From positions 1 to 22,616 of the IMG/VR virus record IMGVR_UViG_3300031963_012204: DNA of 22,616 bases. One strand, given 5' to 3'. Shown one piece after another: positions 1 through 17,862 of this stretch (positions are counted from its first letter, which is position 1; each line of letters begins with the position of its first letter). This DNA comes from a virus. The position numbers and the translations under genes were made by a program. The notes below the pieces were generated by a model that was not told the DNA's origin, did no database searches, and was given only the letters and a program-made list of their open reading frames with translations.

Positions 1-627
1 CTATGGCTTGACGGAAACGCTGAAGGCGCCCAAGCCAACCTCTGCGGCGCCGACCTCCGCGGCGCCGATTTCCGCGACGCCGATTTCCGCTACGCCAACC
101 TCCGCGACGCCGATTTCCGCTACGCCGACCTCCGCGACGCCGATTTCCGCTACGCCGACCTCAGCGAAGCCGACCTCCGCGACGCCGACCTCCGCGGCGC
201 CGATTTCCGCTACGCCAACCTCCGCGACGCCGATTTCCGCTACGCCAACCTCCGCTACGCCGATTTCCGCTACGCCGACCTCCGCTACGCCGATTTCCGC
301 GACGCACTGGGGATTCCCATTGCTGAAGATGCCCCCGCCAGACTGCTCGCTGTTGCCCATGCAGCCCTGGCCGCTCCCGACGCGCTGGAGATGGGGACAT
401 GGCACACATGCGAGACGACCCATTGCATCTGCGGATGGGCTGAGCATCTGGGCGGCCCGCTGGCCAAGCTGATCATTCAACAAAACGGTAACGCAGTAGG
501 CGGATTGATGCTGCTAGGCATCGATGCGCACGCGCATTTTTACGTGACCAATGAAAAGGCGCGTGAGTTTTTGCAGTCTGTTATTGACAACGCCAACACA
601 ACCATCATTGCAGGAGTGAGCGCATGA
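1..627 (+). CDS. Pentapeptide-repeat protein, 5' end outside the window
   Basis: Read from base 1 in frame 1, this strand encodes 18 tandem pentapeptides of the A(D/N)(L/F)R(Y/D/G) type (about residues 12-101), then a C-terminal domain of about 107 residues with a [17 protein letters not shown] segment. Pentapeptide repeats fold as a right-handed beta-helix; some mimic DNA, but nothing here identifies a target. Similar pairings of pentapeptides with a Trp-His-Thr-Cys..Thr-His-Cys domain are, from memory, common in phage and prophage proteins of unknown function. There is no stop upstream and no convincing start in the window, so the gene is partial; an internal ATG at 391 would give only the C-terminal domain. 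It overlaps ssb by an ATGA junction. The array keeps other frames open on both strands, and those readings (Ala-Thr-Pro and Val-Ala-Glu-rich) are shadows. Confidence 0.8.
34..306 (+). repeat. Tandem 15-base coding repeat (pentapeptide array)
   Basis: Eighteen 15-base units occupy 34-303, and two neighbouring units often form a 30-base higher-order repeat pairing a GATTTC unit with a GACCTC or AACCTC unit. The units are nearly identical in nucleotides as well as residues, with the same codons reused. This suggests recent expansion by slippage or recombination rather than conservation of the protein fold alone. Confidence 0.85.
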
Positions 628-989
628 ACTGCATTACCCTCGTCGGCAGAGCCGGCCGAGATCCTGAGGTCCGGTATTTTGAATCCGGCTCCATGGTCGC
701 CAACCTTTCGATTGCGGTGAACCGCCGCCGGGACGAGGATCCCGAATGGTTCAACCTTGAGATCTGGGGCAAAGCCGCCCAGGTCGCTGCGGACTACGTG
801 CGGAAGGGTTCGCTGATCGGCGTGATCGGTTCTGTGAAAACGGAAAAATGGACAGACCGCGCCACCGGCGAAGAGCGCAAAAAGACGGTCGTCCGGGTTG
901 ACAACCTGACACTGCTCAGCTCCAAACGCGACTCCGAGCCGTCGGACGGTGGTGGATTTGCGCCCAGCGAGGAAGAGGTGCCTTTCTGA
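624..989 (+). CDS. ssb: Single-stranded DNA-binding protein (SSB)
   Basis: A 121-residue protein with the bacterial SSB OB-fold: it opens [18 protein letters not shown], continues with an ANLSIAVNR strand and [21 protein letters not shown], and ends in a short acidic tail, EEEVPF, matching the DDIPF-type tip that recruits partner proteins. The linker before the tip is unusually short compared with cellular SSBs of about 150-180 residues. It would coat ssDNA during replication and recombination. The start overlaps the pentapeptide gene by ATGA, and its stop shares one base with the sigma factor start, so the three are probably co-translated. The RecT and RecE-like genes downstream make a recombination role likely. 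Confidence 0.95.
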
Positions 990-1831
990 TGGATTCCCTC
1001 GGAACCTACCTGCACGAGATCGGCCGCGTACCGCTTCTCACCACGACCCAGGAGATCCAACTGGGGCGTCAGATCCAGGCGATGCAAGCACTCGAAGCCG
1101 AAGGCCGTACTGAGCTGACCCGTGATGAGCAACGGATCATGCGGAACGGCAAGCGTGCGATGGACAAGATGATAAAATCCAACCTCCGATTTGTGGTCAC
1201 CATCGCCCGCAAATACCATTACGTCTGCCAGACACTGGAACTGGCGGATGTGATCAGCCTGGGAAACATCGGGCTAGCGACTGCTGCGCGTAAGTTCAGG
1301 CCAGAGCTTGGCTACAAGTTCTCGACCTATGCGTATTGGTGGATCCGGCAGAGCATCACACGCGGAATCAATAATGAAGATCGGTTGATCAGGCTTCCGG
1401 TACATCAGTTCGAGCGGATCGGCAAGATCCGCAACCTGCGGATGAAGCATCCGGGGATGACGATCGATGAAGCTGCTGCCAAGTTGAAGATTTCGATCCA
1501 TGATCTACGGCCGGCATTGCTGGCGTGGACATTGGCGAGCCTGGATAAGGAGGCCGTCGAGGATGGCACAACGATCGGCAGCACAGTTTCGGATGTTACC
1601 CAGTGTCCGGATGATGAGTTGCTGCGGACAACAGCGAACGATGAGGTGCAGATGGCACTGAGTGCATTGAAGCCTGAAGACCGAAACGTGATCGAGTGGC
1701 GGTTTGGGTTCAAAGGGCAGATGGCGCTATCAGAGATCGGCAAAAGAACTGGAGTATGTCGGGAACGTGTGCGACAACGCGAGAAGCGTGCGCTGCTGCG
1801 GTTGCGGTCGTTATTGCAGGTGGCGGGATGA
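989..1831 (+). CDS. Sigma-70 family RNA polymerase sigma factor
   Basis: A 280-residue sigma factor lacking region 1.1. Region 1.2 is DSLGTYLHEIGRVPLLT; regions 2.1-2.4 run through SNLRFVVTIARKY and FSTYAYWWIRQSITRGI; region 3.0 has RLPVHQFERI; region 4 ends with a helix-turn-helix, LSEIGKRTGVCRERVRQ. YAYWWIRQ resembles cyanobacterial group 2 sigmas. Residues equivalent to E. coli sigma70 Q437 and T440 (-12 contact) and H455 and E458 (extended -10) appear kept, so -10 recognition is probably near the housekeeping type. In region 2.2, however, the core-binding DLIQEGN motif reads DVISLGN, changing the positions of Q406 and E407. It probably directs host RNA polymerase to phage promoters. Its start overlaps the ssb stop by one base; its stop overlaps the next start by ATGA. 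Confidence 0.93.
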   Translation: MDSLGTYLHEIGRVPLLTTTQEIQLGRQIQAMQALEAEGRTELTRDEQRIMRNGKRAMDKMIKSNLRFVVTIARKYHYVCQTLELADVISLGNIGLATAARKFRPELGYKFSTYAYWWIRQSITRGINNEDRLIRLPVHQFERIGKIRNLRMKHPGMTIDEAAAKLKISIHDLRPALLAWTLASLDKEAVEDGTTIGSTVSDVTQCPDDELLRTTANDEVQMALSALKPEDRNVIEWRFGFKGQMALSEIGKRTGVCRERVRQREKRALLRLRSLLQVAG

Positions 1832-2079
1832 CAGCCACCTATGACCAGCGCGGCATGAGCCTTCTCAACGATTACCCCCGGTGCGCCGGATGGGGCGATG
1901 GCCCCGAAGATTGGCTGGAGGAATGCTACGACTGTCAGCGCCGGACGGCGCCACCAGGTGGGCAGCAGCATCACCCGCCGCTGATCATTGCGTTCTGGTG
2001 TGAGGATTACATCCCGCCCGATCGGCCGGAGGATCAGCGGTTGCGCAACTGGCCCGGCAGCAAGGACTGGGTGGTGTAG
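1828..2079 (+). CDS. Small Cys-rich protein, paralogue of the 14398-14598 gene
   Basis: An 83-residue unknown with Cys at 19, 33, 36 and 58 in the arrangement RCAG..CYDCQRRT..PGG..WC, suggesting a single zinc site. The segment MSLLNDYPRCAG from residue 10 and CxxCQRRT are repeated in the 66-residue protein at 14398-14598. I chose ATG 1828 because it overlaps the sigma stop (ATGA) and has AGGTGG five bases upstream; ATG 1855 would make the protein start exactly as its paralogue does. The family may be a DNA- or protein-binding zinc knuckle, but no function can be named. An open minus-strand frame across this region has no supporting features. Confidence 0.7.
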   Translation: MTATYDQRGMSLLNDYPRCAGWGDGPEDWLEECYDCQRRTAPPGGQQHHPPLIIAFWCEDYIPPDRPEDQRLRNWPGSKDWVV

Positions 2080-2083
2080 AGGC

Positions 2084-2269
2084 ATGAACGACCACTGCGT
2101 CCTCGATTACTCCAAGCACCCCCAGGTGCTCCGCTGCCTGGAGTGCGGCGACACTCAGGAACTGGTGCTGCCGATGGCTATCTCTGCGGTGGTGACGCAG
2201 ACGAATCGGTTCATAGCTGATCACCGCAAGTGCCGGCCCCTTTTTACCTCCACTTCTTTCAAGTCATGA
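2084..2269 (+). CDS. Small putative zinc-finger protein
   Basis: A 61-residue unknown with C18-x2-C21 (RCLECGDTQE) and H47-x2-C50 (DHRKC), a CCHC spacing compatible with one structural zinc. The spacer is about 25 residues, so it would be a zinc-ribbon-like rather than a classical finger fold. The ATG at 2084 lies just after the previous stop, with a GAGG sequence immediately upstream, and the stop forms ATGA with the next gene. The function is unknown; small phage zinc proteins often act as transcription or host-takeover factors, but that is only an analogy here. Confidence 0.65.
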   Translation: MNDHCVLDYSKHPQVLRCLECGDTQELVLPMAISAVVTQTNRFIADHRKCRPLFTSTSFKS

Positions 2270-2439
2270 CCTACGACGACCGACTCAACATCGCCAAATG
2301 TGCCCGGCAGCGTGGCCAACAGGCCGCCGCCGATGGCGACCCCGGGCGCTACTACCGGGAGACTGCCGCCAGCTTCCGGTTAGTGGGCCGGTATGGCAAC
2401 GCCGCCACGTTTGACCGGCTCGCGGAGGGGGTGGGATGA
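2266..2439 (+). CDS. Small hypothetical protein
   Basis: A 57-residue, probably helical soluble protein with ATGA overlaps at both ends. I do not recognise a family. Its opening, RLNIAKCARQRG, loosely resembles the opening of the 45-residue protein at 15992-16129 (ENVARCAKERS), so the two may be distant relatives; the match is too short to be sure. The rest is rich in Ala, Arg and Tyr with no clear motif. Position and junctions support it as a real gene of the early operon. Confidence 0.55.
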   Translation: MTYDDRLNIAKCARQRGQQAAADGDPGRYYRETAASFRLVGRYGNAATFDRLAEGVG

Positions 2440-2615
2440 GCCACTACCTGCGCAATCTCTCCCGCCATCCCGGCCTCCCGGTGACCGTGTTCTTTAGCGC
2501 TCTTGCTATGGCGGACAGCAGCCATTCATCACGCGGCGTCCTTTTTGGCGCGGTGGTCGCGAGCGTCTATTGGCTGCCGGTGCTGCTCACCACCCCACGG
2601 GGCCCGCAGCCATGA
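2436..2615 (+). CDS. Small probable membrane protein
   Basis: A 59-residue protein with two hydrophobic stretches, about residues 14-25 (LPVTVFFSALAM) and 35-51 (VLFGAVVASVYWLPVLL), separated by a short Ser/His loop, so a two-pass inner-membrane hairpin is plausible. It overlaps both neighbours by ATGA. No family recognised. It could be a host-interaction or superinfection-type membrane peptide, but this is only a guess from size and topology. Confidence 0.55.
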   Translation: MSHYLRNLSRHPGLPVTVFFSALAMADSSHSSRGVLFGAVVASVYWLPVLLTTPRGPQP

Positions 2616-2869
2616 CCACCCCCAACGCCATCGCCCTGGTCCGCGCGCGGCTGTCGTGTCAGCTCGAGGCCGCCGCCCGTGAAGTCGAGCAGGCCCTCAC
2701 GGATGACGCCCCGATCCGGGCGGCCTACGACCAGGGCCGCGCCGACGAACGCCAGGACATGGTGGCCCGGCTCATGTGCTGGCACGAGTCCATCCCGCCC
2801 ACTGCCGGCCGCCATGCCGCCCTCCTCCGTTCAACCCTTCACGACATCATCCGGAGCGTCACCACATGA
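2612..2869 (+). CDS. Small hypothetical protein
   Basis: An 85-residue, probably all-helical protein starting MTTPNAIALVRARLSCQLEA, with an acidic middle (TDDAPIRAAYDQGRADERQD). The start at ATG 2612 overlaps the previous stop by ATGA; an in-frame start at 2570 would lie inside the previous gene. It contains two Cys (16 and 56) without a zinc-like arrangement. I recognise no domain; helical content and co-translation with its neighbours are all that can be said. Confidence 0.55.
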   Translation: MTTPNAIALVRARLSCQLEAAAREVEQALTDDAPIRAAYDQGRADERQDMVARLMCWHESIPPTAGRHAALLRSTLHDIIRSVTT

Positions 2870-2904
2870 CCCGCATTGACCAGATCATCGGGTCGGGGAG
2901 ATGA
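2866..2904 (+). CDS. 12-codon linking ORF between ATGA junctions
   Basis: This ORF encodes MTRIDQIIGSGR. It begins on the ATGA that ends the preceding gene and ends on the ATGA that starts the helicase. It also carries GGGGAG just before the helicase ATG, so it may exist mainly to carry ribosomes to the helicase start or to hold its ribosome binding site. Whether the peptide matters is unknown. Confidence 0.3.
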   Translation: MTRIDQIIGSGR

Positions 2905-4310
2905 GCTACGCCTCTTTCCTCGACCAAAAAACCCATGCCGGCGCTCTCCAGGGCTTTGAACCGGTATGGATGCCCTCCTCCCTGTTTGATTTCCAGCAGT
3001 CTCTAGTGGGTTGGGCCATCCGCAAGGGTCGCGCTGCGATCTTTGCCGATTGCGGGCTGGGCAAGACGGCCATGCAGCTCACATGGGCTGAAAACGTCGC
3101 CCGGCACGCCGACAAGCCGGTGCTGATCCTCACCCCTCTCGCGGTAGCGGCTCAGACCGTGCGCGAGGGTGAGAAATTTGGAATCGAGTGCCATCGGTCC
3201 AGCGATGGGGTGATCGCCGGCCGAATCGTGATCACCAACTACGAACGGCTGGAGCACTTCAACCCTGCCGACTTTGCTGGGGTGGTCTGCGATGAGTCCA
3301 GCATCTTGAAGAGCTTCGACGGATCCCGCCGCAATGAGATCACCAACTTCATGCGGAAGGTGCCCTACCGGCTGCTGGCGACTGCTACGGCTGCCCCTAA
3401 CGACTTCATCGAACTGGGGACCAGCTCCGAAGCGCTCGGATACATGGGGCACATGGACATGTTGGCTCGGTTCTTCAAGAACGATCAAAGCAACCTCACC
3501 AGCCGGCGGATGTACGGCGAGGCGCCGAAATGGCGTTTCAAGGGCCATGCCGAGACGCCTTTCTGGCAGTGGGTCACAAGCTGGGCCCGTGCCTGCCGTA
3601 AGCCCTCAGACCTCGGCTACGACGATGGCCGCTTTGTGCTCCCCCCATTGCGCGAAACCGACCACCTGATCGAAACCGACACCATACCGGAAGGTATGCT
3701 TTTCGCCCTCCCCGCCACCGATCTACGGGAACAACGGGCAGAGAAGAAGCGCACCGTCCGCGAGCGCTGTGAACAGGTGGCCGCCATGGTCGCCAACACC
3801 GGTCAGCCGGCCCTGGTCTGGTGTCACCTCAACGAGGAAGGCAACCTCCTCGAACAACTGATCCCGGACGCTATTCAGGTCTCAGGCTCCGACCGTGACG
3901 ACCTGAAGGAACAGCGGCTGATCGACTTCGCCGAAGGTCGCAGCCGTGTCCTGATCACTAAGCCCAAGATCGGCGCATGGGGTCTCAACTTCCAGCGCTG
4001 CAGCCACATCACCTACTTCCCTTCCCATTCTTTCGAGCAGTATTACCAGTCGGTCCGGCGTTGCTGGCGTTTCGGGCAGGAAAACCCCGTCACAGTTGAC
4101 ATCGTGTTGACGGAAGGCGAGCGGCGCATCATGGACAACCTGCAGCGCAAGCGGCAGCAGGCTGAACAGATGTTTGCCAATCTCGTCGCCGAAATGAATC
4201 ACTCGCTGGAGATCCAGCGCAAGCCCCACCAATCCACCACCATTACCCTCCCCTCATGGCTGTCCTCACCGACCGTTACGCCATCTACAACGGCGACTGC
4301 ATCGAAGTAA
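2901..4310 (+). CDS. SNF2-like superfamily 2 helicase / DNA translocase
   Basis: A 469-residue two-lobed SF2 ATPase. Lobe 1 has Walker A CGLGKTA at about 51-57, a DESS Walker B box at 131-134 and TATAAPND (motif III) at 161-168. Lobe 2 ends with motif VI, QSVRRCWRFGQ, at 383-393, the arginine-finger pattern of SNF2/Rad54-like and type III restriction translocases. After about residue 400 there is a charged helical segment and a Ser/Thr-rich tail, part of it encoded in the overlap with the methyltransferase (4256-4310). The DESS variant in place of DEAH is, from memory, frequent in phage copies. No nuclease domain is visible. It probably remodels or translocates along dsDNA. The 55-base overlap with the methyltransferase suggests a functional pair. 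Confidence 0.9.
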   Translation: MSYASFLDQKTHAGALQGFEPVWMPSSLFDFQQSLVGWAIRKGRAAIFADCGLGKTAMQLTWAENVARHADKPVLILTPLAVAAQTVREGEKFGIECHRSSDGVIAGRIVITNYERLEHFNPADFAGVVCDESSILKSFDGSRRNEITNFMRKVPYRLLATATAAPNDFIELGTSSEALGYMGHMDMLARFFKNDQSNLTSRRMYGEAPKWRFKGHAETPFWQWVTSWARACRKPSDLGYDDGRFVLPPLRETDHLIETDTIPEGMLFALPATDLREQRAEKKRTVRERCEQVAAMVANTGQPALVWCHLNEEGNLLEQLIPDAIQVSGSDRDDLKEQRLIDFAEGRSRVLITKPKIGAWGLNFQRCSHITYFPSHSFEQYYQSVRRCWRFGQENPVTVDIVLTEGERRIMDNLQRKRQQAEQMFANLVAEMNHSLEIQRKPHQSTTITLPSWLSSPTVTPSTTATASK

Positions 4311-5236
4311 TGCAAGGGCTCCCGTCCGAGAGCATCCACTTCTCGATCTATAGCCCGCCGTTCGCCGGTCTCTACGTCTACAGCTCCGATGAACGGGACG
4401 TGAGTAACTGTGTGGACTATGCCCAGTTCATGGACCACTACGGCTACGTGGTTCGTGATCTTCACCGGTTGACGGTGCCAGGGCGGCTGACCGCTGTCCA
4501 CTGCACCGACATTCCCTCTGGCAACAGCGGCCAGGATTCGCTGATGGACCTGCCGGGCAAGATCATCTCCCTGCACGAGGCCAACGGCTGGCACTACGTC
4601 GCCCGCCACACGATATGGAAGGAACCCCTATGGGTGCGCAACCGGACGATGGTGAAAAACCTGGCCCATAAGACGGTCGTGGACGATGCCGCCTTTGCTG
4701 GCGTCGCCTCAGCCGACTACCTGCTGATGTTCCGCCGCAGCGGCACCAACCCCATCCCGATCGCAAACCCCACCGGCCTTGACCACTACGCCGGGGAATG
4801 CCCGATCCCTCAGGAACTGCTGCGGTACAAGGGATGGAAGGGCAAGCAAACCGAGAATCGTTTCAGCCACTGGATCTGGCGCCGCTATGCCAGCTCGATA
4901 TGGGACGACATCAACATGGGCCGTGTCCTGCCGTTCCGCGACAGCAAGGATCCCGACGATGAGAAGCACGTACACCCCTTGCAACTGGATGTGATCGACC
5001 GGGCGATCTGCCTTCGCTCCAACCCTGGCGAGACGGTGCTCACCCCGTTCATGGGTGTCGGCTCCGAAGTGTTCGGCGCCGTCTCTCTCGGCCGCCGTGG
5101 CATCGGAATCGAACTGAAGGAGAGCTATTTCCGGCAGGCGATCAAGAACATGGCGATCGCCGTGGAAGACACTCGCGAGCCGGACCAGTCCGCGCTGTTT
5201 TCTGACTCTGACCTTTTTGCTGAGGTTTCCGCATGA
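4256..5236 (+). CDS. Beta-class DNA methyltransferase (N4-cytosine or N6-adenine)
   Basis: A 326-residue amino-methyltransferase. The catalytic motif SPPF (33-36) comes before the S-adenosylmethionine motif TPFMGVG (263-269), the order of the beta class. The substrate loop begins NGDCIEVMQGL. An SPPF rather than DPPY motif favours N4-cytosine, though N6-adenine is not excluded. The helix before motif I has HPLQLDVIDRAI, typical of the family. The region between them, about 200 residues, holds the target-recognition domain. The start at 4256 lies inside the helicase gene, and the N-terminal motif needs this start, so the overlap is real. No cognate endonuclease is adjacent, so it is probably an orphan enzyme used for self-protection or regulation, or a partner of the helicase. 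Confidence 0.92.
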   Translation: MAVLTDRYAIYNGDCIEVMQGLPSESIHFSIYSPPFAGLYVYSSDERDVSNCVDYAQFMDHYGYVVRDLHRLTVPGRLTAVHCTDIPSGNSGQDSLMDLPGKIISLHEANGWHYVARHTIWKEPLWVRNRTMVKNLAHKTVVDDAAFAGVASADYLLMFRRSGTNPIPIANPTGLDHYAGECPIPQELLRYKGWKGKQTENRFSHWIWRRYASSIWDDINMGRVLPFRDSKDPDDEKHVHPLQLDVIDRAICLRSNPGETVLTPFMGVGSEVFGAVSLGRRGIGIELKESYFRQAIKNMAIAVEDTREPDQSALFSDSDLFAEVSA

Positions 5237-5472
5237 CCATGATCACCAACGATTCCAACCGCAACCTGCCGCCATTCATCGGCTTGTGGAGCCCCGCACC
5301 AGGGTGCGGGAAGTCAACGGTCGCGCATTATCTGGGCGAACTGCAGCCGGGATACAGCGACGACAGCGGCCACCGATCAGAGGCCGGCTTGGGTGATATT
5401 CCTATCGCCCGGACGATCGTGAACGACGGCACGCTCAGCGAGCTGCGGCGCAAGGTGGGGGTGATGGCATGA
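5233..5472 (+). CDS. Shortened P-loop protein, probable internally deleted dNMP kinase
   Basis: A 79-residue protein with a Walker A-like loop, PAPGCGKSTV (21-30), in which the usual first Gly is Pro. It jumps after about 10 residues to GHRSEAGLGD and TIVNDGTLSELRRKV, which resemble the C-terminal end of phage deoxynucleoside monophosphate kinases (His-Ser-Glu, then Ile-x-Asn-Asp/Asn-Gly-Thr/Ser-Leu-x-x-Leu). Those enzymes are normally near 180-240 residues, so the LID/NMP-binding core appears missing. The frame is intact and both ends have ATGA junctions, so it is still translated, but kinase activity is unlikely. Alternatively it may be an unrelated small P-loop peptide. Confidence 0.7.
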   Translation: MTMITNDSNRNLPPFIGLWSPAPGCGKSTVAHYLGELQPGYSDDSGHRSEAGLGDIPIARTIVNDGTLSELRRKVGVMA

Positions 5473-6062
5473 AGGAACGTCCGATCCTGTTCTCTGGCCC
5501 GATGGTGCGGGCCATCCTCGAGGGACGGAAGACGCAGACGCGGAGGGTGGTAAAACGCCAGGGCGACATGGAGTTCGACCCTGCTGATCCTCACTTCGGA
5601 CCTTACTGGCTGTCCTATGCCACCGAAGCGGATGGGGAAGACGCCAAAGTCCGCTGCCCCTACGGCGTGCCAGGCGACCGGCTCTGGGTGCGGGAGACGT
5701 TCGCGGAGAACGCGGGCACAGCCGGCGGCATCGTCTACCGCGCTGACGTCGGCGATTCATGCCATGGCGTCGCACGACTGGATCTGAAATGCCAGGAATG
5801 GACGCATCACGTTGACCGCTGGCGCCCGTCGATCTTCATGCCCCGGCGGTTCAGCCGCATCCTGCTGGAGATCACCGGCGTGCGGGTGGAGAGGCTGCAG
5901 GACATCAGCGATGACGACTGCCGAGCAGAGGGCTACGACCGATCACACGCTTTCCCCCGTGAATGGTTTGCCCGGCTTTGGGCATCTATTAACGGCCCCG
6001 GATCATGGGCCGCCAACCCGTGGGTGTGGGTGGTGAGCTTCCGGAGGGTGGAGGCGAAATGA
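5469..6062 (+). CDS. ASCH/PUA-like phage protein of unknown function
   Basis: A 197-residue protein with the recognisable phage architecture: RPILFSGPMVRAILEGRKTQ at the start, TRRVV shortly after, CPYGVPGDRLWVRETF in the middle, then RWRPSIFMPRRFSRILLEIT, a ISDDDCRAEG segment and a C-terminal SWAANPWVWVVSF. This family is widespread in phages and prophages and resembles ASCH-fold (PUA-like) RNA/nucleotide-binding domains; its function is not established as far as I recall. Start and stop both form ATGA overlaps with neighbours. Length and motifs look complete. Confidence 0.82.
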   Translation: MKERPILFSGPMVRAILEGRKTQTRRVVKRQGDMEFDPADPHFGPYWLSYATEADGEDAKVRCPYGVPGDRLWVRETFAENAGTAGGIVYRADVGDSCHGVARLDLKCQEWTHHVDRWRPSIFMPRRFSRILLEITGVRVERLQDISDDDCRAEGYDRSHAFPREWFARLWASINGPGSWAANPWVWVVSFRRVEAK

Positions 6063-6877
6063 CGCTGCTCCCCTTCCTCCTGCACCTCCCCGACGGCAAG
6101 CGTCGCCGCGGTGCGGTCAGGGCCCGTGATTGGGCCACTGGCATGGATGCCTTGTGGACCCGCTACCCCGGGGCATCGGTCCAGCTCACCATGCTCGCCT
6201 CATCGCCACCCTCAAACACTGCCCCCGTCGCCGCCACTGAACGGCTCCCGCTGGCACAGGCTGAGGCCATCGCTGATTCGATGGGCACCGGCAGTCCCGC
6301 CCTGGATCGGATCGTGGAGAGGCTCGGCAGCACCGCCGACCCCAAACGCCGCTACGAGTACGTGCTGTGGCTGGCCAAGAAGCTGCCTCCCCTGCCGGAG
6401 GACTACCGGCAGGACGTGTTCAAGGTGCGGGGCTGCGTGTCGCAGGTGTATGTGGTGGGGCAGCTGCAGGAGGGGCGCCTGCATTGGCAGGGCGATTCGG
6501 ATGCGGCAATCACCAAGGGGCTGATAGCGTTGCTGGTCGAGGGTCTGGAGGGCCTCACCCCCGCCCAGGTGGAAGCCCTCGATCCGGCCTTCCTGGCCGA
6601 CACCGGGCTGCAGGCGAGCCTCACGCCCTCGCGCGCCAACGGCTTCCTGAACATCTTCCGGATGATGCAGGCCCAGGCCCGCTCCCTCAGCGCCGACATC
6701 CCGCGGTTCACATCTCGTCGCTGGTCCGCGGTGTCGGTGCCGGTGGCGACCGCCAGGAACAATTCCCGCACCAGCCCTTCAATCGGTGCGGCTGGTGCTG
6801 ACTGCAGACACGCGGCGACGGCTGCTGCAGACTCCTGCCGGGCGGTGGCCGCCGCCGAGGCGTTCCTGAGGGCCTGA
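6059..6877 (+). CDS. sufE: SufE sulfur-acceptor domain fused to a phage-like N-terminus
   Basis: A 272-residue ORF in three parts. Residues 1-44 look like a short phage protein (HLPDGKRRRGAVRARD). Residues about 75-213 are a full SufE domain: PALDRIVERLGSTADPKRRY, then KVRGCVSQVYV with the sulfur-accepting Cys at 126, WQGDSDAAITKGLIALL, and SLTPSRANGFLNIFRMMQ. The last 58 residues are Ala/Ser/Arg-rich and unlike SufE. SufE takes persulfide sulfur from the cysteine desulfurase SufS and passes it to the SufBCD scaffold. The gene may be translated as one fusion from ATG 6059 (ATGA overlap), or SufE may start at the internal ATG 6191 or 6281. It looks like host-derived cargo inserted behind a truncated or short phage gene. 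Confidence 0.82.
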   Translation: MTLLPFLLHLPDGKRRRGAVRARDWATGMDALWTRYPGASVQLTMLASSPPSNTAPVAATERLPLAQAEAIADSMGTGSPALDRIVERLGSTADPKRRYEYVLWLAKKLPPLPEDYRQDVFKVRGCVSQVYVVGQLQEGRLHWQGDSDAAITKGLIALLVEGLEGLTPAQVEALDPAFLADTGLQASLTPSRANGFLNIFRMMQAQARSLSADIPRFTSRRWSAVSVPVATARNNSRTSPSIGAAGADCRHAATAAADSCRAVAAAEAFLRA

Positions 6878-7093
6878 GGAAACACGGGACGAGAGCCAGG
6901 CAGCGGCACAGGGGACGGCGGGAGGTGGTCTGCATGGTACGTGGTTATTTGTGAACAACCGACCACTAGGCAGGACATGGGTTAGTATGTGGAAGTCCTG
7001 AGCGGCGGACGGGCAAACCCACCGACCGGGACACCCCAATCCACGCCTGCAGTCGAGCCTGAGCGCTCCTGCCGGTATTCCCCTTCTGAACCG
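6878..7093. other. Non-coding gap ending the first gene block
   Basis: About 215 bases without a well-supported gene. The + strand run of ATGA junctions ends here. TAGTAT at 6983-6988 could be a -10 element, but no good -35 lies 16-18 bases upstream. A GTG at 6989 could extend the next gene by 35 residues. The end of the SufE ORF and this gap read as a coherent minus-strand frame down from 6978 (ARQESAAAVAACLQS, GLVRELFLAVATGTDTADQR), which might be a remnant of a gene next to sufE in its source genome. Confidence 0.4.
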
Positions 7094-7501
7094 ATGAACT
7101 ACCTGACTACTGACTGGGGCCCAGCAATCCGGCACGGTTGCCGCAGTGTTGCCCCTGTGCTCGTTCTGATCGCCTTGGCCGTGACGGTCGCTGTGGAGCG
7201 GACCTATGCCGCCGGGTTCCGGCTCGGCTGCTGGGTGCACGGCGCGAACGACTGGCTGGCGGCGCACTGGGTTGCGCTGTGGGTCGGTCCGCAGTCCGAA
7301 CCCAAGCCGACTGCACCGCTGGCGCTGCCGCCTGCCCCTGCACCCATCGCCCTGCTGGCCCCTGCGCCGGTGCCGGTTGATGGCCTCGCGCTGGCGTTGC
7401 AGTTGATCGGTGCCGGTGTGAGCATCCGCCAGGCAGCCCGCACGGTCGGCATGGCCCGCACCACGTTGCAGCGCCGGCTGCGGGAGGTGGCTACGGCATG
7501 A
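7094..7501 (+). CDS. Possible membrane-anchored helix-turn-helix protein
   Basis: A 135-residue protein with a hydrophobic helix at about 18-34 (SVAPVLVLIALAVTVAV), a further Trp-rich stretch to about 65, a Pro/Ala linker at about 66-94, and a C-terminal helix-turn-helix at about 95-130 (GAGVSIRQAARTVGMARTTL). The HTH resembles the DNA-binding part of resolvases/invertases, with no recombinase domain. This arrangement suggests a membrane-tethered DNA-binding regulator or a protein that anchors phage DNA. I chose ATG 7094; GTG 6989 is an alternative. Neither has a strong ribosome binding site. Loss of the catalytic domain from a resolvase is possible, but the Pro-rich linker and TM argue for a designed architecture. 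Confidence 0.68.
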   Translation: MNYLTTDWGPAIRHGCRSVAPVLVLIALAVTVAVERTYAAGFRLGCWVHGANDWLAAHWVALWVGPQSEPKPTAPLALPPAPAPIALLAPAPVPVDGLALALQLIGAGVSIRQAARTVGMARTTLQRRLREVATA

Positions 7502-7532
7502 CCCCCACGGCCCGCCGGAGCCTATCCGGCAC
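7502..7532 (+). repeat. Intergenic hairpin repeat, copy A
   Basis: This segment follows the stop of the HTH gene. It carries a perfect stem GCCGGA (7514-7519) and TCCGGC (7525-7530) around a five-base loop. It matches the segment at 7767-7798 at most positions (CCCCACGGC, CGCCG, GAGCC, ATCCGGCA). There is no T-run, so it is not a normal terminator; it may be an mRNA-stabilising or protein-binding hairpin. Confidence 0.65.
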
Positions 7533-7558
7533 TCTCTACCGCACAGCACCGCACAACC

Positions 7559-7765
7559 ATGGCAAAACTTCAAGAAGTGACGATAGAAGCCAACTTAGGC
7601 GCATCCCAGGATGGAAGCATTGCCAGAGCCTCGCTATCACCTGAAGGTTTACGCATCACGATCGCAAAGGGCGATTCTATTCAGGAAATTATTCTCAACA
7701 GCCGGGAGCAAATAGAGGCGTTATCTTGCATTTTTGAAACTCACCGCTACGCAAAAATTGGCTAG
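7559..7765 (+). CDS. Small hypothetical protein in an AT-richer patch
   Basis: A 68-residue protein beginning MAKLQEVTIEANLGASQDGS, predicted mostly beta-strand followed by a helix (NSREQIEALSCIFETH). The ATG at 7559 sits in ACCATGG, with no obvious Shine-Dalgarno sequence. Base composition is visibly more AT-rich than the neighbouring genes, as in 10579-11055 and 11880-12197. It is flanked on both sides by the duplicated GCCGG hairpin, as though it were an inserted cassette. No family recognised. Confidence 0.6.
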   Translation: MAKLQEVTIEANLGASQDGSIARASLSPEGLRITIAKGDSIQEIILNSREQIEALSCIFETHRYAKIG

Positions 7766-7766
7766 C

Positions 7767-7798
7767 TCCCCACGGCTCGCCGGGAGCCCATCCGGCAA
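7767..7798 (+). repeat. Intergenic hairpin repeat, copy B
   Basis: The second copy of the hairpin repeat starts just after the stop of the 68-residue gene. The stem is GCCGG (7779-7783) with CCGGC (7792-7796) around an eight-base loop; compared with copy A there is one inserted G and a compensating mismatch. Preservation of the stem with loop changes supports selection on an RNA or DNA hairpin. Confidence 0.6.
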
Positions 7799-7817
7799 CC
7801 CATCCCATCACACCCCC

Positions 7818-8141
7818 ATGAAAACCGAGTACCCCCTATTAGCCTCCATCGGCAAAACGCTTGCCGCCATTGAGATCTCTTGCCGCAACGCTCAGTGCGT
7901 CCTGGTGTTTGATGATGACACCTTCACGACGCTTAGGGCAAAGATGTATGGCGACGATCCCGAAATTGAGCCCGACATTCTTGACCGGAGCTCCTTTGGA
8001 TATGAGGAGCTGATCCGCGCTGGAATCATGACCGAGGAAGAGGTGACGGCACTGCGAGCAGAGAAGGAGGCCAGAGCGCAGGCATATGCCGAGCGACGGG
8101 AACGAGAGACGTATGAACGGCTGAAACGGAAGTTTGGTTGA
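7818..8141 (+). CDS. Hypothetical protein with C-terminal coiled coil
   Basis: A 107-residue protein: an N-terminal beta-type region (CVLVFDDDTFTTLRAKMYG), then a helical, highly charged tail (EEEVTALRAEKEARAQAYAE) that looks like a coiled coil. ATG 7818 follows the second hairpin repeat; the in-frame start at 7734 would overlap the previous gene and is less likely. It is lower in GC than its neighbours. I recognise no family. The coiled coil suggests self-assembly or a partner protein. Confidence 0.6.
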   Translation: MKTEYPLLASIGKTLAAIEISCRNAQCVLVFDDDTFTTLRAKMYGDDPEIEPDILDRSSFGYEELIRAGIMTEEEVTALRAEKEARAQAYAERRERETYERLKRKFG

Positions 8142-8160
8142 CCCCACTGCACCGCATCCC

Positions 8161-8427
8161 ATGACCCAGTTCCTCAGCATCACCGACACCGGAGGCCGGA
8201 TTGGCCGGATCCGGTGGAGCAACACGTCCCCCCGATCCCGCCTGTGGGGCAACGTGTGGTGGGATCTGTCGTGGCCGCACCAGAGGCCGCCACTGAGCCG
8301 ATTCGCTGCCTTGTTCGCCGAGATCGCCGACAACGCCGCCCTGGCCGCCCAGGTGCTGCAGTCCTCGGTTGAGCGGGCCACCGAGGCTGTGCGGGAGCTG
8401 GGCAAAGCCTTTGGGAGGCTGCAATGA
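8161..8427 (+). CDS. Hypothetical protein with helical C-terminus
   Basis: An 88-residue protein from ATG 8161 (a TTG at 8134 would add nine residues). It opens MTQFLSITDTGGRIGRIRW, has a Trp-rich middle (WGNVWWDLSWPHQ) and a long Ala-rich amphipathic helix (ADNAALAAQVLQSSVERATE). It ends with an ATGA overlap to the 45-residue ORF. I recognise no domain; it may be a small oligomeric phage protein. Confidence 0.6.
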   Translation: MTQFLSITDTGGRIGRIRWSNTSPRSRLWGNVWWDLSWPHQRPPLSRFAALFAEIADNAALAAQVLQSSVERATEAVRELGKAFGRLQ

Positions 8428-8561
8428 CCCGCCCCTACCTCGCCACCCTCGCCAACGGCACCACCGCCCGGCTGATGGCCGTGAGCCGTGCTGCAGCGAT
8501 CCTCACGGCACGCGAGCTGTTTACCACCGTCGTCCGTGTCGTGGAGGATGGGGACTGGTGA
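8424..8561 (+). CDS. Small hypothetical protein
   Basis: A 45-residue protein, MTRPYLATLANGTTARLMAV at its start and an acidic VVEDGDW end, with a helical middle (SRAAAILTARELFTTVVRVV). The ATGA junction with the previous gene supports translation. Its 3' end overlaps the end of the minus-strand gene at 8521-8718 tail to tail, so transcription from the two sides would collide here. No family recognised. Confidence 0.5.
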   Translation: MTRPYLATLANGTTARLMAVSRAAAILTARELFTTVVRVVEDGDW

Positions 8562-8718
8562 CTGCCTCCTCTCCGTCATCGTCCCAGCCTTCCTCCACCT
8601 CCAGCAGCGTTTCCGCCAACAGTTCCATATCGGCCGCCACGTCCGATAGGTCAAGGTCGATTTGCATGAAGGCCAACACAGCACAGCACCGCTCAAGGTA
8701 GCGACTGTCGGACAACAC
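8521..8718 (-). CDS. Small acidic protein, divergent from cyAbrB
   Basis: Reading down from GTG 8718, the minus strand encodes 65 residues: SDSRYLERCCAVLAFMQIDL, DLSDVAADMELLAETLLEVE, then a very acidic EGWDDDGEE and a basic tail. This is a natural-looking acidic helical protein, and bases 8562-8718 have no competing + strand gene, which supports it as real. It would be transcribed away from cyAbrB. An ATG 17 codons in is an alternative start. No family recognised; acidic small phage proteins sometimes act as anti-repressors or DNA mimics, so an interaction with cyAbrB is worth testing. Confidence 0.55.
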   Translation of the reverse strand: MLSDSRYLERCCAVLAFMQIDLDLSDVAADMELLAETLLEVEEGWDDDGEEAVTSPHPPRHGRRW

Positions 8719-8766
8719 TACAAACGCTACCGCCTGTGGTCGGTATCATTACCACCGAGATGCACA
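8697..8766. promoter_or_regulatory. Divergent control region with inverted repeats upstream of cyAbrB
   Basis: GGTAGCG (8697-8703) and CGCTACC (8725-8731) form a 7-base inverted repeat with a 21-base spacer, spanning the start of the minus-strand gene. TATCAT at 8744-8749 matches five of six bases of a -10 box for cyAbrB and sits inside a smaller dyad, GGTA-N4-TACC (8742-8753), so a protein bound there would block the promoter. No good -35 is present. The GGTAGCG motif recurs at 9145-9151, but also inside unrelated genes such as the helicase, so its specificity is unproven. Confidence 0.5.
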
Positions 8767-9156
8767 ATGCACATGATGGCGCTGACCGGTGACGAACTCC
8801 TGCGGCGGGTGAATGAACTGAATGCCGAAGGGGCGAACAAGACCAGGCTCGCCCGTGAGACGGGCTATATCACCCAGAAGAAGGACGGCACCGAACGGGT
8901 CAATTTCACCGGGTTCTATGAAGCCCTGCTGTCGGCCCAAGGCACGATCAGCAAACGACCGAAACGCAAGCCCGGTCGGCCCGGTCGCCCGCTGTCGTAT
9001 CGAACCAGGGTGCTGAGCGGCGTGGGTCATGCCGTCGTCGGTGCCCGCTACCTGGATCAGATCGGAGTGAGCGAGGGGGACATGCTGCAGATCAGCGTCA
9101 GCCGCGGCCGGCTCACCCTGACCCCCATCCGTGGCGAGTCTCGCGGTAGCGATTAG
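8767..9156 (+). CDS. abrB: cyAbrB-type transcription regulator
   Basis: A 129-residue protein matching the cyanobacterial AbrB (cyAbrB) layout: an N-terminal cyanobacteria-specific domain (ALTGDELLRRVNELNAEG, GYITQKKDGTERVNFTGFYE ALLSAQG) and a C-terminal swapped-hairpin AbrB domain (YRTRVLSGVGHAVVGARYLD, then GVSEGDMLQISVSRGRLTLT). Cellular cyAbrBs are global regulators of carbon/nitrogen balance and of other genes in cyanobacteria. The start is one of ATG 8767, 8773 or 8776, all in phase; 8776 gives the canonical M-A-L-T-G. It has its own promoter candidate and terminator, unlike the operon genes around it. In a phage it could serve as repressor of a lysogeny switch or mimic the host regulator. 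Confidence 0.88.
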   Translation: MHMMALTGDELLRRVNELNAEGANKTRLARETGYITQKKDGTERVNFTGFYEALLSAQGTISKRPKRKPGRPGRPLSYRTRVLSGVGHAVVGARYLDQIGVSEGDMLQISVSRGRLTLTPIRGESRGSD

Positions 9157-9182
9157 TATTGATGCGGTAGGTCGGGGTTCCG

Positions 9183-9210
9183 GGGCTCTCTGAGGGGGGA
9201 GCCCTTTTTT
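9183..9210 (+). terminator. Rho-independent terminator after cyAbrB
   Basis: The stem GGGCTC (9183-9188) pairs with GAGCCC (9199-9204), followed at once by six T (9205-9210). It lies 26 bases past the cyAbrB stop and isolates the regulator from the RecT operon. Confidence 0.9.
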
Positions 9211-9409
9211 GTGCGGTATGGTTTGCGGATCGGTCATCACCACCGCCACCGATCTAGACCACATGGTATGGGCTCCGCGATGCCCCTTGGCTGTAGCCGT
9301 GGGCACATCCGGCAGCGGCCGTGATGGAGGTTGCCAAACGGTAGGGAACGTGGTTAGGGTGTGTGCAGGTTCTTCATCAGGACCGCAATCACCCCTTACC
9401 TGAGTTTTT
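9211..9409. promoter_or_regulatory. Non-coding control region before recT
   Basis: About 200 bases without a supported gene. GATCGGT (9228-9234) and ACCGATC (9248-9254) form a 7-base dyad with a 13-base spacer. It is flanked by two direct copies of GGTATGG at 9215-9221 and 9265-9271, exactly 50 bases apart. This is a plausible operator or replication/recombination protein site. A weak promoter candidate is TTGCCA (9331-9336) with TTAGGG (9354-9359) at 17-base spacing; the -10 is poor. Confidence 0.45.
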
Positions 9410-10579
9410 ATGCCCCGAACAGCAGCGGCGCCCAGTCGAAACGGCGCCATTCAGCAAGTGCAGACCCGCCCGGCGGCGGGTGCGTTGCAGCCCGCGCAGG
9501 CCGGCACCGTCGAGGCAGCCCTCCAGGATCCCGCCGTTAAGGGCCAACTCGCTCGGGCCCTTCCCTCATTCATCACAGCCGATCGCTTCCTGCGGGTCGT
9601 GCAGACCGAGGTGAGGAAGACCCCGGAGCTTGCTCGCTGCAGCCCGGCGAGCTTCATGGCTTCCATGATGACCGCCGCGCAGCTTGGGCTGGAGATCGGC
9701 GTCAACGGTGGCGCATTCCTGGTGCCCTACAAGGGAATCTGCAGCTTCGTCCCCGGATGGAAAGGGCTGGTCGACCTTGTGTCTCGCACCGGCCGCGCCA
9801 CGATCTGGACCGGCGCCGTGTTTGAAGGTGACGAGTTCGACTATGCCTTGGGCGATAGCCCATTCGTCACCCATCGCCCCGGCGATGAATCCGACCCTGA
9901 GCGGCTGACGCACGTCTATGCAATCGGCCGGGTTCGGGGCAGCGAGTTTCCGATCATTGAAGTCTGGACCGCAAACAAGATCTGGCAGCACCGCGACAAG
10001 CACAACAAGCAGGGCCAGAAGCATTACAGCTATCGCAACCCTGAGATGTATGCGCGGAAGGTGCCACTACTGCAGGTGATCAAGTATCTGCCGACTTCGA
10101 CGGAGCTGGCGATTGCGCTCGACGCCAACGATCAGGCCGAGATCGCACCGGTGACGGTCACTGTGTCGCAGCCCAAAGCGCCGCAGTTGCCGGCCGATTC
10201 GCAGCCTGCTGCCGACGCCGTGGATGCCACCACGCCGCAGCCCCAATCCGACCCCCCCGCCCCGATCGCCACCATCAGCCAGGAGCAGTTGGAAACGATC
10301 ATAGGCGCGATGGAAAACCGCCTCGGCGCCGTCGGATCCGAAGCGTTCGTCACTGAGGTCTGTGCAGTGATGCAGGTGGAGGATCTGAGCCAACTGCCCG
10401 CCGATGCGTTCTCCGCCGTCATGAAGTCCCTGGCCGATAATGCCGCGGTCGCCGCATGGGGCGAAGGCAAGAGCCGCCAGGGCCGGCAGTTGATCAGCCC
10501 GGAGCGGATCCAGGAACTGCTGAGCGACCCATCGCCTGAGCTGCCGCTGCAGCCGGCGGCCATGCCGGAGTTTGACTGA
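9410..10579 (+). CDS. recT: RecT-family single-strand annealing protein
   Basis: A 389-residue RecT/Redbeta-like recombinase. The core runs from about residue 30 to 240: ITADRFLRVVQTEVRKTPEL, SPASFMASMMTAAQLGLEIG, a LVPYKGICSFVPGWKGLVDL segment and HYSYRNPEMYARKVPLLQVI. These match the RecT fold that anneals complementary ssDNA and promotes strand invasion. After about 240 there is a Pro/Ala/Gln linker and a C-terminal helical domain ending in an acidic tail, longer than the E. coli Rac RecT (269 residues). It starts at ATG 9410, after the non-coding region. With SSB and the RecE-like nuclease it forms a Red-like pathway. Its stop shares a base with the next start. Confidence 0.93.
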   Translation: MPRTAAAPSRNGAIQQVQTRPAAGALQPAQAGTVEAALQDPAVKGQLARALPSFITADRFLRVVQTEVRKTPELARCSPASFMASMMTAAQLGLEIGVNGGAFLVPYKGICSFVPGWKGLVDLVSRTGRATIWTGAVFEGDEFDYALGDSPFVTHRPGDESDPERLTHVYAIGRVRGSEFPIIEVWTANKIWQHRDKHNKQGQKHYSYRNPEMYARKVPLLQVIKYLPTSTELAIALDANDQAEIAPVTVTVSQPKAPQLPADSQPAADAVDATTPQPQSDPPAPIATISQEQLETIIGAMENRLGAVGSEAFVTEVCAVMQVEDLSQLPADAFSAVMKSLADNAAVAAWGEGKSRQGRQLISPERIQELLSDPSPELPLQPAAMPEFD

Positions 10580-11055
10580 TGGACAAGCCACTCGACATTC
10601 GCGTCGGCCAGCAATGGGAACGCCGCGACGGGCAGACTGTAACCATTAAGGAAAAAACGAAAACCGGTTACTTTTATTCCAAATGCGAAAAAGGGTTTGA
10701 ATGGTATTACTTGCCAGACGGTCAACTCAACACATACGTCGATGAGTATGCGTTGGTCAAGCTCCTTCAAGATGTGCCGCCAAGCAAGCCAGAGCCCGAC
10801 CCGGCCAAATCCGAGGCTCCCGATTCGATCCGCAGCGGCAGTGAGCCGTTCTATGTGGTGGTAGTGGACGACGATTCTGGTGGCCGCGCCACCAACGACA
10901 ACCCTGGCCACTCCATCACGTGGGAGACACAGATCCCCGAGGGCAGCAACCTTCGCGCTGTCCTTCGCCAGCGTGCCGCAGTCGGCAACCGCTACGGCAC
11001 CACCTACATCGCCGAGTGCCGCATCATTCCGGAGCTTACCCATGACCCGCTCTGA
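10579..11055 (+). CDS. Hypothetical protein, mosaic composition
   Basis: A 158-residue protein in two halves. Residues about 1-65 (RVGQQWERRDGQTVTIKEKT, CEKGFEWYYLPDGQLNTY) look like a small beta-barrel, SH3-like domain, and are encoded by noticeably AT-rich DNA. Residues about 66-92 are a Pro/Ser linker, and the rest (EPFYVVVVDDDSGGRATN to the end) is encoded by normal high-GC DNA. This suggests a domain fusion of two sources. It starts one base into the recT stop and overlaps the next gene by 14 bases. No function can be named. Confidence 0.7.
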   Translation: MDKPLDIRVGQQWERRDGQTVTIKEKTKTGYFYSKCEKGFEWYYLPDGQLNTYVDEYALVKLLQDVPPSKPEPDPAKSEAPDSIRSGSEPFYVVVVDDDSGGRATNDNPGHSITWETQIPEGSNLRAVLRQRAAVGNRYGTTYIAECRIIPELTHDPL

Positions 11056-11635
11056 ACTCCTCCCCCTGGAAGGCCAGTGGGTGCGGTGGCGGGGCCTCGT
11101 CGACTGCTGGAAATCACGTCCCAACGGTGACACCGACATCTGCATCAGGGCCGTCCGCATCTGGCCGTGGGCATTCACCGAACCGCTCGACACCCTGCGG
11201 CCATCGCTGCAGACTGATCACCTCTGGCTGCGGTGCCCTGCCGCCTTTGTTGCCACCCTCAACGTCGAGCGGCTGCAACCGGCGAACGGGATCGGCACCG
11301 TGGGATGGTATCGCCGGGCTGATGGGACCACGAACGTCGGCGTGCGGGCCCGGGTGCTGACGAACGCGGGCGAGCTACAGCGATTGGTCATCGACCACAT
11401 GCGCCACGGCGAATGGCATCAGGCGATCGGCCTGATCGATGACTACCTGGCGCGGCACCGCAGGGGCGTGAGCATCCTGTGTGCGCCGAACCAGGCGCCG
11501 GAGGCGATCGTGGCGGACCTTAAATGGAGCCGGAAGCTGGCGGCCGACAACCTGAACCGGTTGCGATCGGCACCCAGGTATGGCCGGAGCCGTAGCGCCG
11601 GCCGATTTCGTGACCTATTGCAAACCCGCCAATGA
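11042..11635 (+). CDS. Hypothetical protein
   Basis: A 197-residue protein starting MTRSELLPLEGQWVRWRGLV. The N-terminal two thirds look beta-rich (CIRAVRIWPWAF, HLWLRCPAAFVATLNVERLQ), and the C-terminal third is basic and helical (DLKWSRKLAADNLNRLRSAP), possibly nucleic-acid binding. The ATG at 11042 lies 14 bases before the end of the upstream gene. The position between RecT and the RecE-like nuclease is suggestive of recombination or regulation, but no family is recognised. Confidence 0.65.
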   Translation: MTRSELLPLEGQWVRWRGLVDCWKSRPNGDTDICIRAVRIWPWAFTEPLDTLRPSLQTDHLWLRCPAAFVATLNVERLQPANGIGTVGWYRRADGTTNVGVRARVLTNAGELQRLVIDHMRHGEWHQAIGLIDDYLARHRRGVSILCAPNQAPEAIVADLKWSRKLAADNLNRLRSAPRYGRSRSAGRFRDLLQTRQ

Positions 11636-11811
11636 TCCCGATCGTTTCCGCCGGTCGTCGGTTTCTAATCGTGAACGGTTACCGCATTGTTATTGACCAA
11701 TCCCCTGAGCAGTCCGATGATTTTCTCCCCCGCGAGCTTCTTTTCCCGCCTGGCAACGGTTGCGGTCGTGATCGCAGCCGGTCTGACGATCGCAACTGCC
11801 GGGCCGTCTGA
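11632..11811 (+). CDS. Small hypothetical protein, ATGA-linked
   Basis: A 59-residue ORF whose ATG overlaps the preceding stop as ATGA. The first 38 residues (VSAGRRFLIVNGYRIVIDQS, DDFLPRELLF) look like a beta-hairpin protein; the last 20 are Arg/Asp-rich and low in complexity. Its 3' half is overlapped in another frame by the ORF at 11717-11875. Both may be used, or this one may have been cut off by the second. Junction and codon texture favour translation of at least its N-terminal part. Confidence 0.5.
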   Translation: MIPIVSAGRRFLIVNGYRIVIDQSPEQSDDFLPRELLFPPGNGCGRDRSRSDDRNCRAV

Positions 11812-11875
11812 GCGAGCGCTTGATGCTGCCTGTGCCCACTACGCCCCTTCTGCCGCCGCTTGTCTGCGGCTTTGA
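11717..11875 (+). CDS. Small signal-peptide-like protein
   Basis: A 52-residue ORF with a basic then hydrophobic N-terminus, MIFSPASFFSRLATVAVVIA, continuing AGLTIATAGPSERALDAACA, which reads like a signal sequence or single membrane anchor. Two Cys follow in the short exported part. It starts inside the 11632-11811 ORF in a different frame. Similar tiny exported proteins occur at 15213-15362. No family recognised, so function is unknown. Confidence 0.45.
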   Translation: MIFSPASFFSRLATVAVVIAAGLTIATAGPSERALDAACAHYAPSAAACLRL

Positions 11876-11879
11876 ACCC

Positions 11880-12197
11880 ATGACCGAACACACACCTCTG
11901 CCCCAGTGGCCAAATGGCATCACAGATCGCCCTCCCATCGCAAGCGATGCCGACAGTAACGGTCTGGTTCAAGTTATTAGGGAAAACAATACATGGCACA
12001 CTCACACATGGGAAGACGCTGCCAGAGGGCGTTTTGTATGGATGCACACGCCTGCTTGGCGCCCTCGCATAGCCCCATCCGATGCGTCTGAAGCCCTGAA
12101 GTCCCTTATTTTTTGGGAGACTTCCGGTCAACAGAGATGGTACAAGGCAGCGGAAACCCTTGAAGCTTTCATCTCACAACACTCCAGCACGCCATGA
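11880..12197 (+). CDS. Hypothetical protein in a low-GC patch
   Basis: A 105-residue protein starting MTEHTPLPQWPNGITDRPPI. It contains Trp/His-rich segments (NNTWHTHTWEDAARGRFVWM, WETSGQQRWYKAAETLEAFI) but no recognised motif. ATG 11880 is preferred over the in-frame start at 11820, which would overlap the signal-peptide ORF. Composition is lower in GC than its neighbours. ATGA links it to the next gene. Confidence 0.62.
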   Translation: MTEHTPLPQWPNGITDRPPIASDADSNGLVQVIRENNTWHTHTWEDAARGRFVWMHTPAWRPRIAPSDASEALKSLIFWETSGQQRWYKAAETLEAFISQHSSTP

Positions 12198-12418
12198 CCA
12201 CAACCCCCACCGCGCCAGCCACGCTGAATGACGTAAAAGGCCACCCGCTGTGCCGCGTGGTCTACAGCGCCGACGAGTCAGACAGCCCCCACCGGTACCA
12301 CTTCACGAACGGCTACTACGAGGAATACGCAACCGATGCCGACGTGGTTCATATCGCGTCGCTGTTCATCAGCGATGGCCTGCCTTTCACCCTCACCGTT
12401 TCGGAATACAACCCATGA
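12194..12418 (+). CDS. Small hypothetical protein
   Basis: A 74-residue protein with ATGA junctions on both sides. The middle, HPLCRVVYSADESDSPHRYH, and the end, IASLFISDGLPFTLTVSEYN, look beta-rich and soluble. It sits directly before the RecE-like nuclease and is co-translated with it, so a small accessory role in recombination is possible, but no motif supports it. Confidence 0.58.
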   Translation: MTTTPTAPATLNDVKGHPLCRVVYSADESDSPHRYHFTNGYYEEYATDADVVHIASLFISDGLPFTLTVSEYNP

Positions 12419-13422: not shown

Positions 13423-13562
13423 CCAGCCCCCAACTCCCCAAGTTCCGCCCCGACCCGCCGACCCGGCTGGTGTCGGTGTCATCCCTGCGGAAGCTGCACT
13501 GGCTGATGAATGTGGCGATTGCGCTACAGATTGTTCAGCTCTTTACCTACCTGATCCGATGA
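13419..13562 (+). CDS. Small membrane peptide
   Basis: A 47-residue protein with a Pro-rich N-terminus, MTSPQLPKFRPDPPTRLV, and one hydrophobic C-terminal helix, HWLMNVAIALQIVQLFTYLI, so a single-pass membrane anchor is likely. ATGA overlaps at both ends link it to the nuclease and the next gene. No family recognised. Confidence 0.5.
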   Translation: MTSPQLPKFRPDPPTRLVSVSSLRKLHWLMNVAIALQIVQLFTYLIR

Positions 13563-13786: not shown

Positions 13787-13890
13787 GCACACCAGACCAA
13801 GGGCCGCAGTGCCCGCCGGTGCCTGATTACGTGTCCCAGTTGTTCTGGACATCCTTCGAGGACAGGTCGACCCCCAACCAGCCGGCGTAG
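13783..13890 (+). CDS. Very small hypothetical protein
   Basis: A 35-residue ORF, MSTPDQGPQCPPVPDYVSQL then FWTSFEDRSTPNQPA, linked to the preceding gene by ATGA and ending TAG two bases before the next ATG. Pro-rich, with no recognisable feature. The coupling supports it weakly. Confidence 0.4.
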   Translation: MSTPDQGPQCPPVPDYVSQLFWTSFEDRSTPNQPA

Positions 13891-13892
13891 AG

Positions 13893-15362: not shown

Positions 15363-15387
15363 GTCCGTCATCTGGGAACCCTGAACC

Positions 15388-17286: not shown

Positions 17287-17287
17287 C

Positions 17288-17859: not shown

Positions 17860-17862
17860 GGC

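Follow-up and report, generated by a model that had tools for sequence, protein, structure and literature searches.

The closest described counterparts of the sigma factor analysed here come from Synechococcus phages. The best cultured match is rpsD4 of phage S-CBS3 (GU936715), annotated as a 'group 2 RNA polymerase sigma factor', with 41.7% identity over 98% of the sequence. According to the accessible text of a review (PMC10452541), expression of S-CBS3 RpsD4 in S. elongatus enhanced growth and raised acetyl-CoA 1.9-fold, which suggests that the protein is active but is no proof of core binding. The rpsD4 product of phage S-CBS1 (HM480106) is a second cyanosiphophage group-2-like factor, with 43.2% identity over 91%, and the sigma factor of phage S-LBS1 (MG271909) differs more, at 31.6% identity. 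One report, in its available parts, treats S-LBS1, S-CBS1 and S-CBS3 as relatives whose sigma factors diverge, S-CBS1 being without ssb (PMC6157547); in phage P-SS2, according to the available part of another, the sigma gene adjoins ssb in the opposite order to that seen here (PMC2784084).

We analysed the 22,616-base virus record IMGVR_UViG_3300031963_012204, positions 1 to 22,616, hereafter the window, which as a whole gave no megablast match to phage records. Its sigma gene extends from position 989 to 1831 on the plus strand, begins with ATG and encodes 280 residues. The surroundings partly resemble those in S-CBS3, with ssb upstream and lysozyme and fibre genes downstream on the opposite strand. 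In S-CBS3, however, one small ORF separates ssb from the sigma gene, and the sigma gene lies near lysozyme, whereas the window has helicase, methylase, RecT and exonuclease genes in between; in S-LBS1 ssb lies about 2.7 kb upstream.

The product belongs to the sigma-70 family by several measures. Pfam models Sigma70_r1_2, Sigma70_r2 and Sigma70_r4 matched at 44.8, 57.1 and 57.3 bits, above their gathering cut-offs of 22, 24 and 24.1, respectively. Sigma70_r3 was absent from the Pfam matches at E 0.001, and the alignment has a 5-residue gap in the region 3 part; region 3 is not obligatory in the sigma-70 family. The phrog_351 profile matched residues 42-276, spanning region 2 to region 4, with E 5.9e-70, placing the protein in PHROG_351 as a phage group-2-like factor. 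The top NCBIfam model was TIGR02997 (Sig70-cyanoRpoD), which covered residues 2-273 with 235.7 bits, below its curated cut-off of 384.5 and hence outside the cyanobacterial RpoD/SigA subfamily, from which the window sigma also differs in the loop and the motif described below. The matched portions of the sigma factors of S-CBS3 (260.6) and of phage contig L307 (247.6) likewise fell below that cut-off.

Both promoter recognition elements are intact. The -10 helix, WWIRQSIT (positions 1337-1360, plus strand), contains WWIRQ at residues 117-121, as in sigma factors of the group 1/2 type, and we take Q121 and T124 to occupy the places of sigma70 Q437 and T440. The -35 recognition segment of region 4.2, RERVRQ (1760-1777, plus strand), is also retained. 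Judged from the alignment, both helices read like those of housekeeping factors, an impression that the earlier sequence-only reading had formed for the -10 residues. Bases 1-20000 of the window contained one promoter-like site, compared with a mean of 3.7 in shuffled sequences.

AlphaFold2 modelled the protein with a mean pLDDT of 85.3 and a pTM of 0.52. Block values ran from 91 to 98 over residues 1-130 and from 94 to 98 at the region 2.2 helix, which the model predicts to be unbroken across residues 85-102, and values below 50 were confined to linker stretches within residues 183-206. The top structural matches were sigma chains, mostly from initiation complexes, including the cyanobacterial RNAP-SigA structures 9dvu and 8gzg. 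Whole-chain TM-scores were just 0.34-0.45, with rmsd above 20, as would be expected if the model leaves the relative placement of its two confidently predicted halves undefined.

The feature that sets this protein apart lies in region 2.2, where the motif DVISLGN (residues 87-93; positions 1247-1267, plus strand) replaces the DLIQEGN of E. coli RpoD. Ser90 (codon 1256-1258) and Leu91 (codon 1259-1261, both on the plus strand) are the equivalents of E. coli Q406 and E407, as numbered in the accessible part of an endosymbiont study (PMC8321222). ORF, Pfam and alignment data thus all bear out the sigma factor and the substitution that had been proposed from the DNA. The same study, in its available text, names residues 403, 406, 407 and 409 as contacts, sums up E. 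coli mutagenesis at three such residues as causing 'just a weakening' of attachment to the coiled coil of beta-prime, and notes E407A in 17 Hodgkinia strains (PMC8321222). The proposal that E. coli changes at Q406 and E407 weaken core binding therefore holds, within what these parts of the study report.

To place the pair at 406/407 among other phage factors, we aligned the best 80 of at least 600 viral relatives, the comparison that the sequence-only reading had called for. QE occurred in 73, QD in three, QF in two, and QL and SE in one each, so that position 406 was altered in a single relative and position 407 in six. Considering these frequencies of single changes, 1/80 and 6/80, both together are to be expected seldom, but not never. 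In this sample the five top-scoring relatives (L002-L006) all read QF or QD.

Pattern scans, which demand an exact WWIRQ at fixed spacing, found no other IMG/VR contig in which serine and a hydrophobic residue precede WWIRQ at the spacing seen in the window, although records very near the window were possibly skipped. Nor did any of 386 cyanobacterial genomes contain Ser, Thr, Cys, Arg or Trp followed by a hydrophobic residue in that context; as a positive control, the pattern with QE and WWIRQ matched in ten of ten genomes. Glutamine followed by a hydrophobic residue, together with WWIRQ, was found in nine viral contigs and in one of the 386 cyanobacterial genomes, where it reads QV (L287; G357:C4:90528-90632).

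The sequence-only reading had set its case against the chance that S and L are common in active cyanobacterial sigma factors. They are not: all 55 distinct cyanobacterial sequences of the WWIRQ type have QE, the group 1/2 pair from which the window's SL departs. The other 22 of the 77 distinct cyanobacterial region 2 sequences, which lack WWIRQ, comprise QV in 11, QE in six, and SA, AS, QL, QI and QQ once each; these 77 were drawn from 179 matched frames. Ten genomes gave 95 region 2 places, of which 80 were taken as separate stretches and some others as whole loci. Among all sequences compared, Leu at 407 recurred only in phage contig L046 (QL) and in one cyanobacterial sequence of the non-WWIRQ kind. 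Within the viral and cyanobacterial sets searched, no second sigma of the WWIRQ type combined S and L in this way, and the function of the pair in such a context is therefore without direct precedent. The motif is real and uncommon.

Each position taken singly is more variable in nature. Three of the four cultured cyanosiphophages compared have an altered pair: S-CBS1 reads SE, with Ser at 406 as in the window but Glu kept at 407; S-CBS3 reads QD rather than SL; S-LBS1 shares with the window an altered 407 (QA); and KBS-S-2A retains QE. Infectious relatives thus carry Ser at 406, or Asp or Ala at 407. A scan for Ser at 406 alone returned 65 viral contigs, which on translation gave SE in 55, SD in five, SS in four and SA in one, and a looser pattern added a 66th viral row with ND. 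Most of the Ser-406 contigs, judged from the flanks, resemble Bacteroidota RpoD, and phage contig L307 is also among them.

Cellular and plasmid-borne factors vary as well. Four sigma factors from Bacteroidota plasmid records have N-E or D-E, E. coli RpoS has EE and FliA QA, RpoH from an E. coli plasmid has QE, and a SigG has QI. The sigma chain of PDB 6pfv, entered as 'RNA polymerase sigma factor' and presumably WhiG, reads S-S, and we take B. subtilis SigD to carry S-L itself at this place. The accessible portions of the literature on sporulation sigma factors and Bacillota phage sigma factors held nothing bearing on 406/407, the sporulation work concerning other residues.

The window sigma also differs from host factors immediately upstream of the motif. 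A loop of ten residues (positions 1217-1246, plus strand) leads from the KY of region 2.1 to D87 of region 2.2, two residues more than in the 80 cellular cyanobacterial sigmas compared, all of which have eight. The loop is of the same length in S-CBS3 and has 11 residues in S-CBS1 and S-LBS1. Loops of 10-12 residues, for which we coin the name long-loop phage sigmas and among which the window falls, occurred in 134 of 225 viral rows (e.g. L004, L012 and L471); these rows (207 distinct) combine similarity matches with matches chosen by pattern (Ser at 406, QE, or Q-hydrophobic), so that such proportions are not population rates, and the best-80 sample above is the less biased one. Of the distinct long-loop viral sigmas among the matches listed, 121 in number and partly chosen by the QE pattern, 106 have QE.

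We built a tree of 86 rows, comprising 77 long-loop viral rows (the window included, thinned at 85% identity) and nine cellular rows, without the loop and motif columns and leaving out short-loop viral rows as well as L163, which is the same phage as L004. On this tree loop length requires one change, and the pair switched between QE and non-QE at least eight times. The partner of the window, on another tree and on this one, was L010, with SH-aLRT values of 80 and 88. Since L010 keeps QE, the S-L changes may have arisen on the window's own branch. Deep forks were weakly supported in both trees, and a single origin of the longer loop is offered as a suggestion from these sequences. In the open-access literature searched, as far as accessible, this elongated loop of cyanophage sigmas did not come up.

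The repeated changes bear on whether the factor might be weak by design, as had been suggested from the motif. The S-L pair would then lower affinity for the core, and the phage sigma could rival host SigA only when abundant, late in infection, or when host sigma is reduced, which would set the timing of its action. A rare pair located in the beta-prime contact, where E. coli mutants bind less (PMC8321222, available part), fits such a role, as does the fact that a pair held constant in the 55 cyanobacterial WWIRQ sequences has been altered repeatedly in phages. Retention of QE in 73 of the best 80 of at least 600 viral relatives, and in most of the long-loop sigmas listed, a partly QE-chosen set, nevertheless argues against a general phage strategy, and non-QE cellular sigmas occur naturally; we consider design for weakness rather improbable, although it is the leading alternative to a fully working factor. 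A wider interpretation, to which we give a slightly better but still low chance, is that cyanophage-type sigmas form a group with a remodelled beta-prime interface. A longer 2.1-2.2 loop, acquired once, would lie next to the site that touches the clamp helices, and QE, almost invariant in host sigmas, would have been lost several times, most markedly as S-L in the window. Such a loop may provide contacts in place of those lost, or help the phage factor to escape host control (e.g. by anti-sigma factors) as it competes for core.

Other deviations of the protein are few and clustered. In an alignment of 150 relatives, 39 columns reach a conservation of 95% or more; the window sigma keeps 36 of them and departs at three, L68F, Q90S and D104R, all in region 2. 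The median number of departures among viral relatives is zero, and three or more occur in six of 70, so that the window sigma is among the more deviant relatives at near-invariant columns. Its terminal branch is long (1.0 and 0.81 changes per column on the two trees), and the nearest sigma among the sequences in both trees has 44-45% identity. Three region 2 departures, more than in most relatives, and a long branch are what one would see if the motif were an early lesion in a sigma gene freed from selection. The ORF is intact, however, it is coupled to SSB, and the recognition residues are retained together with the 36 conserved columns, making a decaying gene very unlikely.

On the host side, the clamp-helix stretch corresponding to E. 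coli beta-prime 250-320 is 80-82% identical to E. coli in nine of ten cyanobacterial genomes, the tenth giving no match, and R275, E295 and A302 are retained in all nine. A modified host polymerase as a requirement for this sigma factor was rejected on these grounds. Restoration of binding through an altered beta-prime, or through a phage protein acting as partner, was the other outcome envisaged from the motif. A candidate for such a partner is a small Cys-containing ORF of 83 residues (positions 1828-2079, plus strand), the ATG of which overlaps the sigma stop codon (ATGA). This product has no Pfam match, though, a scan of 20 window ORFs revealed neither a partner nor a gene for polymerase modification, and the conserved clamp helices speak against an altered polymerase; we hold a need for either to be most improbable. 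Considering also the altered pairs of cultured S-CBS1, S-CBS3 and S-LBS1 and the natural non-QE cellular sigmas, inferring polymerase modification, dependence on a partner or designed weakness from the motif finds no support. The small Cys ORF has a likeness elsewhere in the window, at 14398-14598 on the plus strand: 'MSLLND..RCAG' and 'C.DCQRRT' are common to both, and neither has a Pfam match over cut-off.

Upstream, the sigma gene is joined to a gene for a single-strand DNA-binding protein of 121 residues (SSB; positions 624-989, plus strand; PF00436, E 1e-27) through a TGATG junction, in which the SSB stop codon TGA and the sigma ATG have base 989 in common. Co-translation with SSB had been singled out as unusual, an idea that we rejected. 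Among the 93 viral sigma loci compared, 54 also carry an SSB-like frame, always upstream and on the same strand; it lies within 300 bp in 30 of the 93, distances being taken between the ends of open frames rather than start codons. With repeats counted once (L168, L170, L171 and L163 being the same as L003, L046, L002 and L004), SSB is present in 51 of 89 loci and within 300 bp in 27.

Further features of the window were recorded alongside. The G+C content of the sigma gene is 56.1% (67.6% at third positions), below the 62.9% of the window, with third positions at 75.7% in the helicase gene and 78.7% in the RecT gene; the lower value hints at a different history. The ORF at 6005-6877 (plus strand) encodes a SufE-family domain (PF02657, E 9.7e-40) without a PHROG match and is a possible iron-sulfur auxiliary metabolic gene. 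The ORF at 20192-21466 (minus strand) encodes a collagen-repeat protein (PF01391, E 1.2e-21), probably a tail fibre. Positions 1-300 (plus strand) contain near-tandem repeats of about 15 bases, identified by eye, with short repeats in open frames. An AbrB-like regulator (PF14250) is encoded at 8662-9156 (plus strand), a family that we take to be cyanobacterial and therefore a hint of the host. From this protein and the relatives of the sigma factor, we infer that the host is a cyanobacterium.

Taken together, we regard it as probable, on the strength of the comparisons above, that this is a working phage group-2-like sigma factor that binds the unmodified host core and in which the S-L substitutions are tolerated. 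In favour of this reading, the domains and recognition helices are intact, 36 of 39 conserved columns are kept, the region 2.2 helix is predicted to be intact, the pair is altered in three of the four cultured cyanosiphophages compared and changed at least eight times on the tree, and the clamp helices are conserved. A cyanosiphovirus would make a group-2-like sigma-70 factor from an operon with SSB. The factor would bind unmodified host core, with region 2 on the beta-prime clamp helices and region 4 on the beta flap, and would steer it to promoters, probably those of phage genes, whose -10 and -35 elements are close to consensus. The S-L pair would be a tolerated change among phage sigmas in which the motif changes repeatedly and which have a longer loop ahead of it than host factors do. 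Core binding, promoter targets, timing and the small effect of S-L are what we infer from this combination, and weaker core binding of the window sigma is possible.

A change that looks damaging when set against the E. coli textbook motif thus lies close to natural variation. The contact at 406/407 is nearly fixed in cyanobacterial sigmas of the group 1/2 type and freer in phage sigmas presumed to work with the same polymerase. This group-wide pattern, in which a longer loop goes with recurrent departure from QE at the beta-prime interface, is of more interest than the motif of the window itself. Should some of the contact be taken over by the longer loop, the sigmas of cyanophages would constitute a natural set of variants for studying how sigma factors compete for core.
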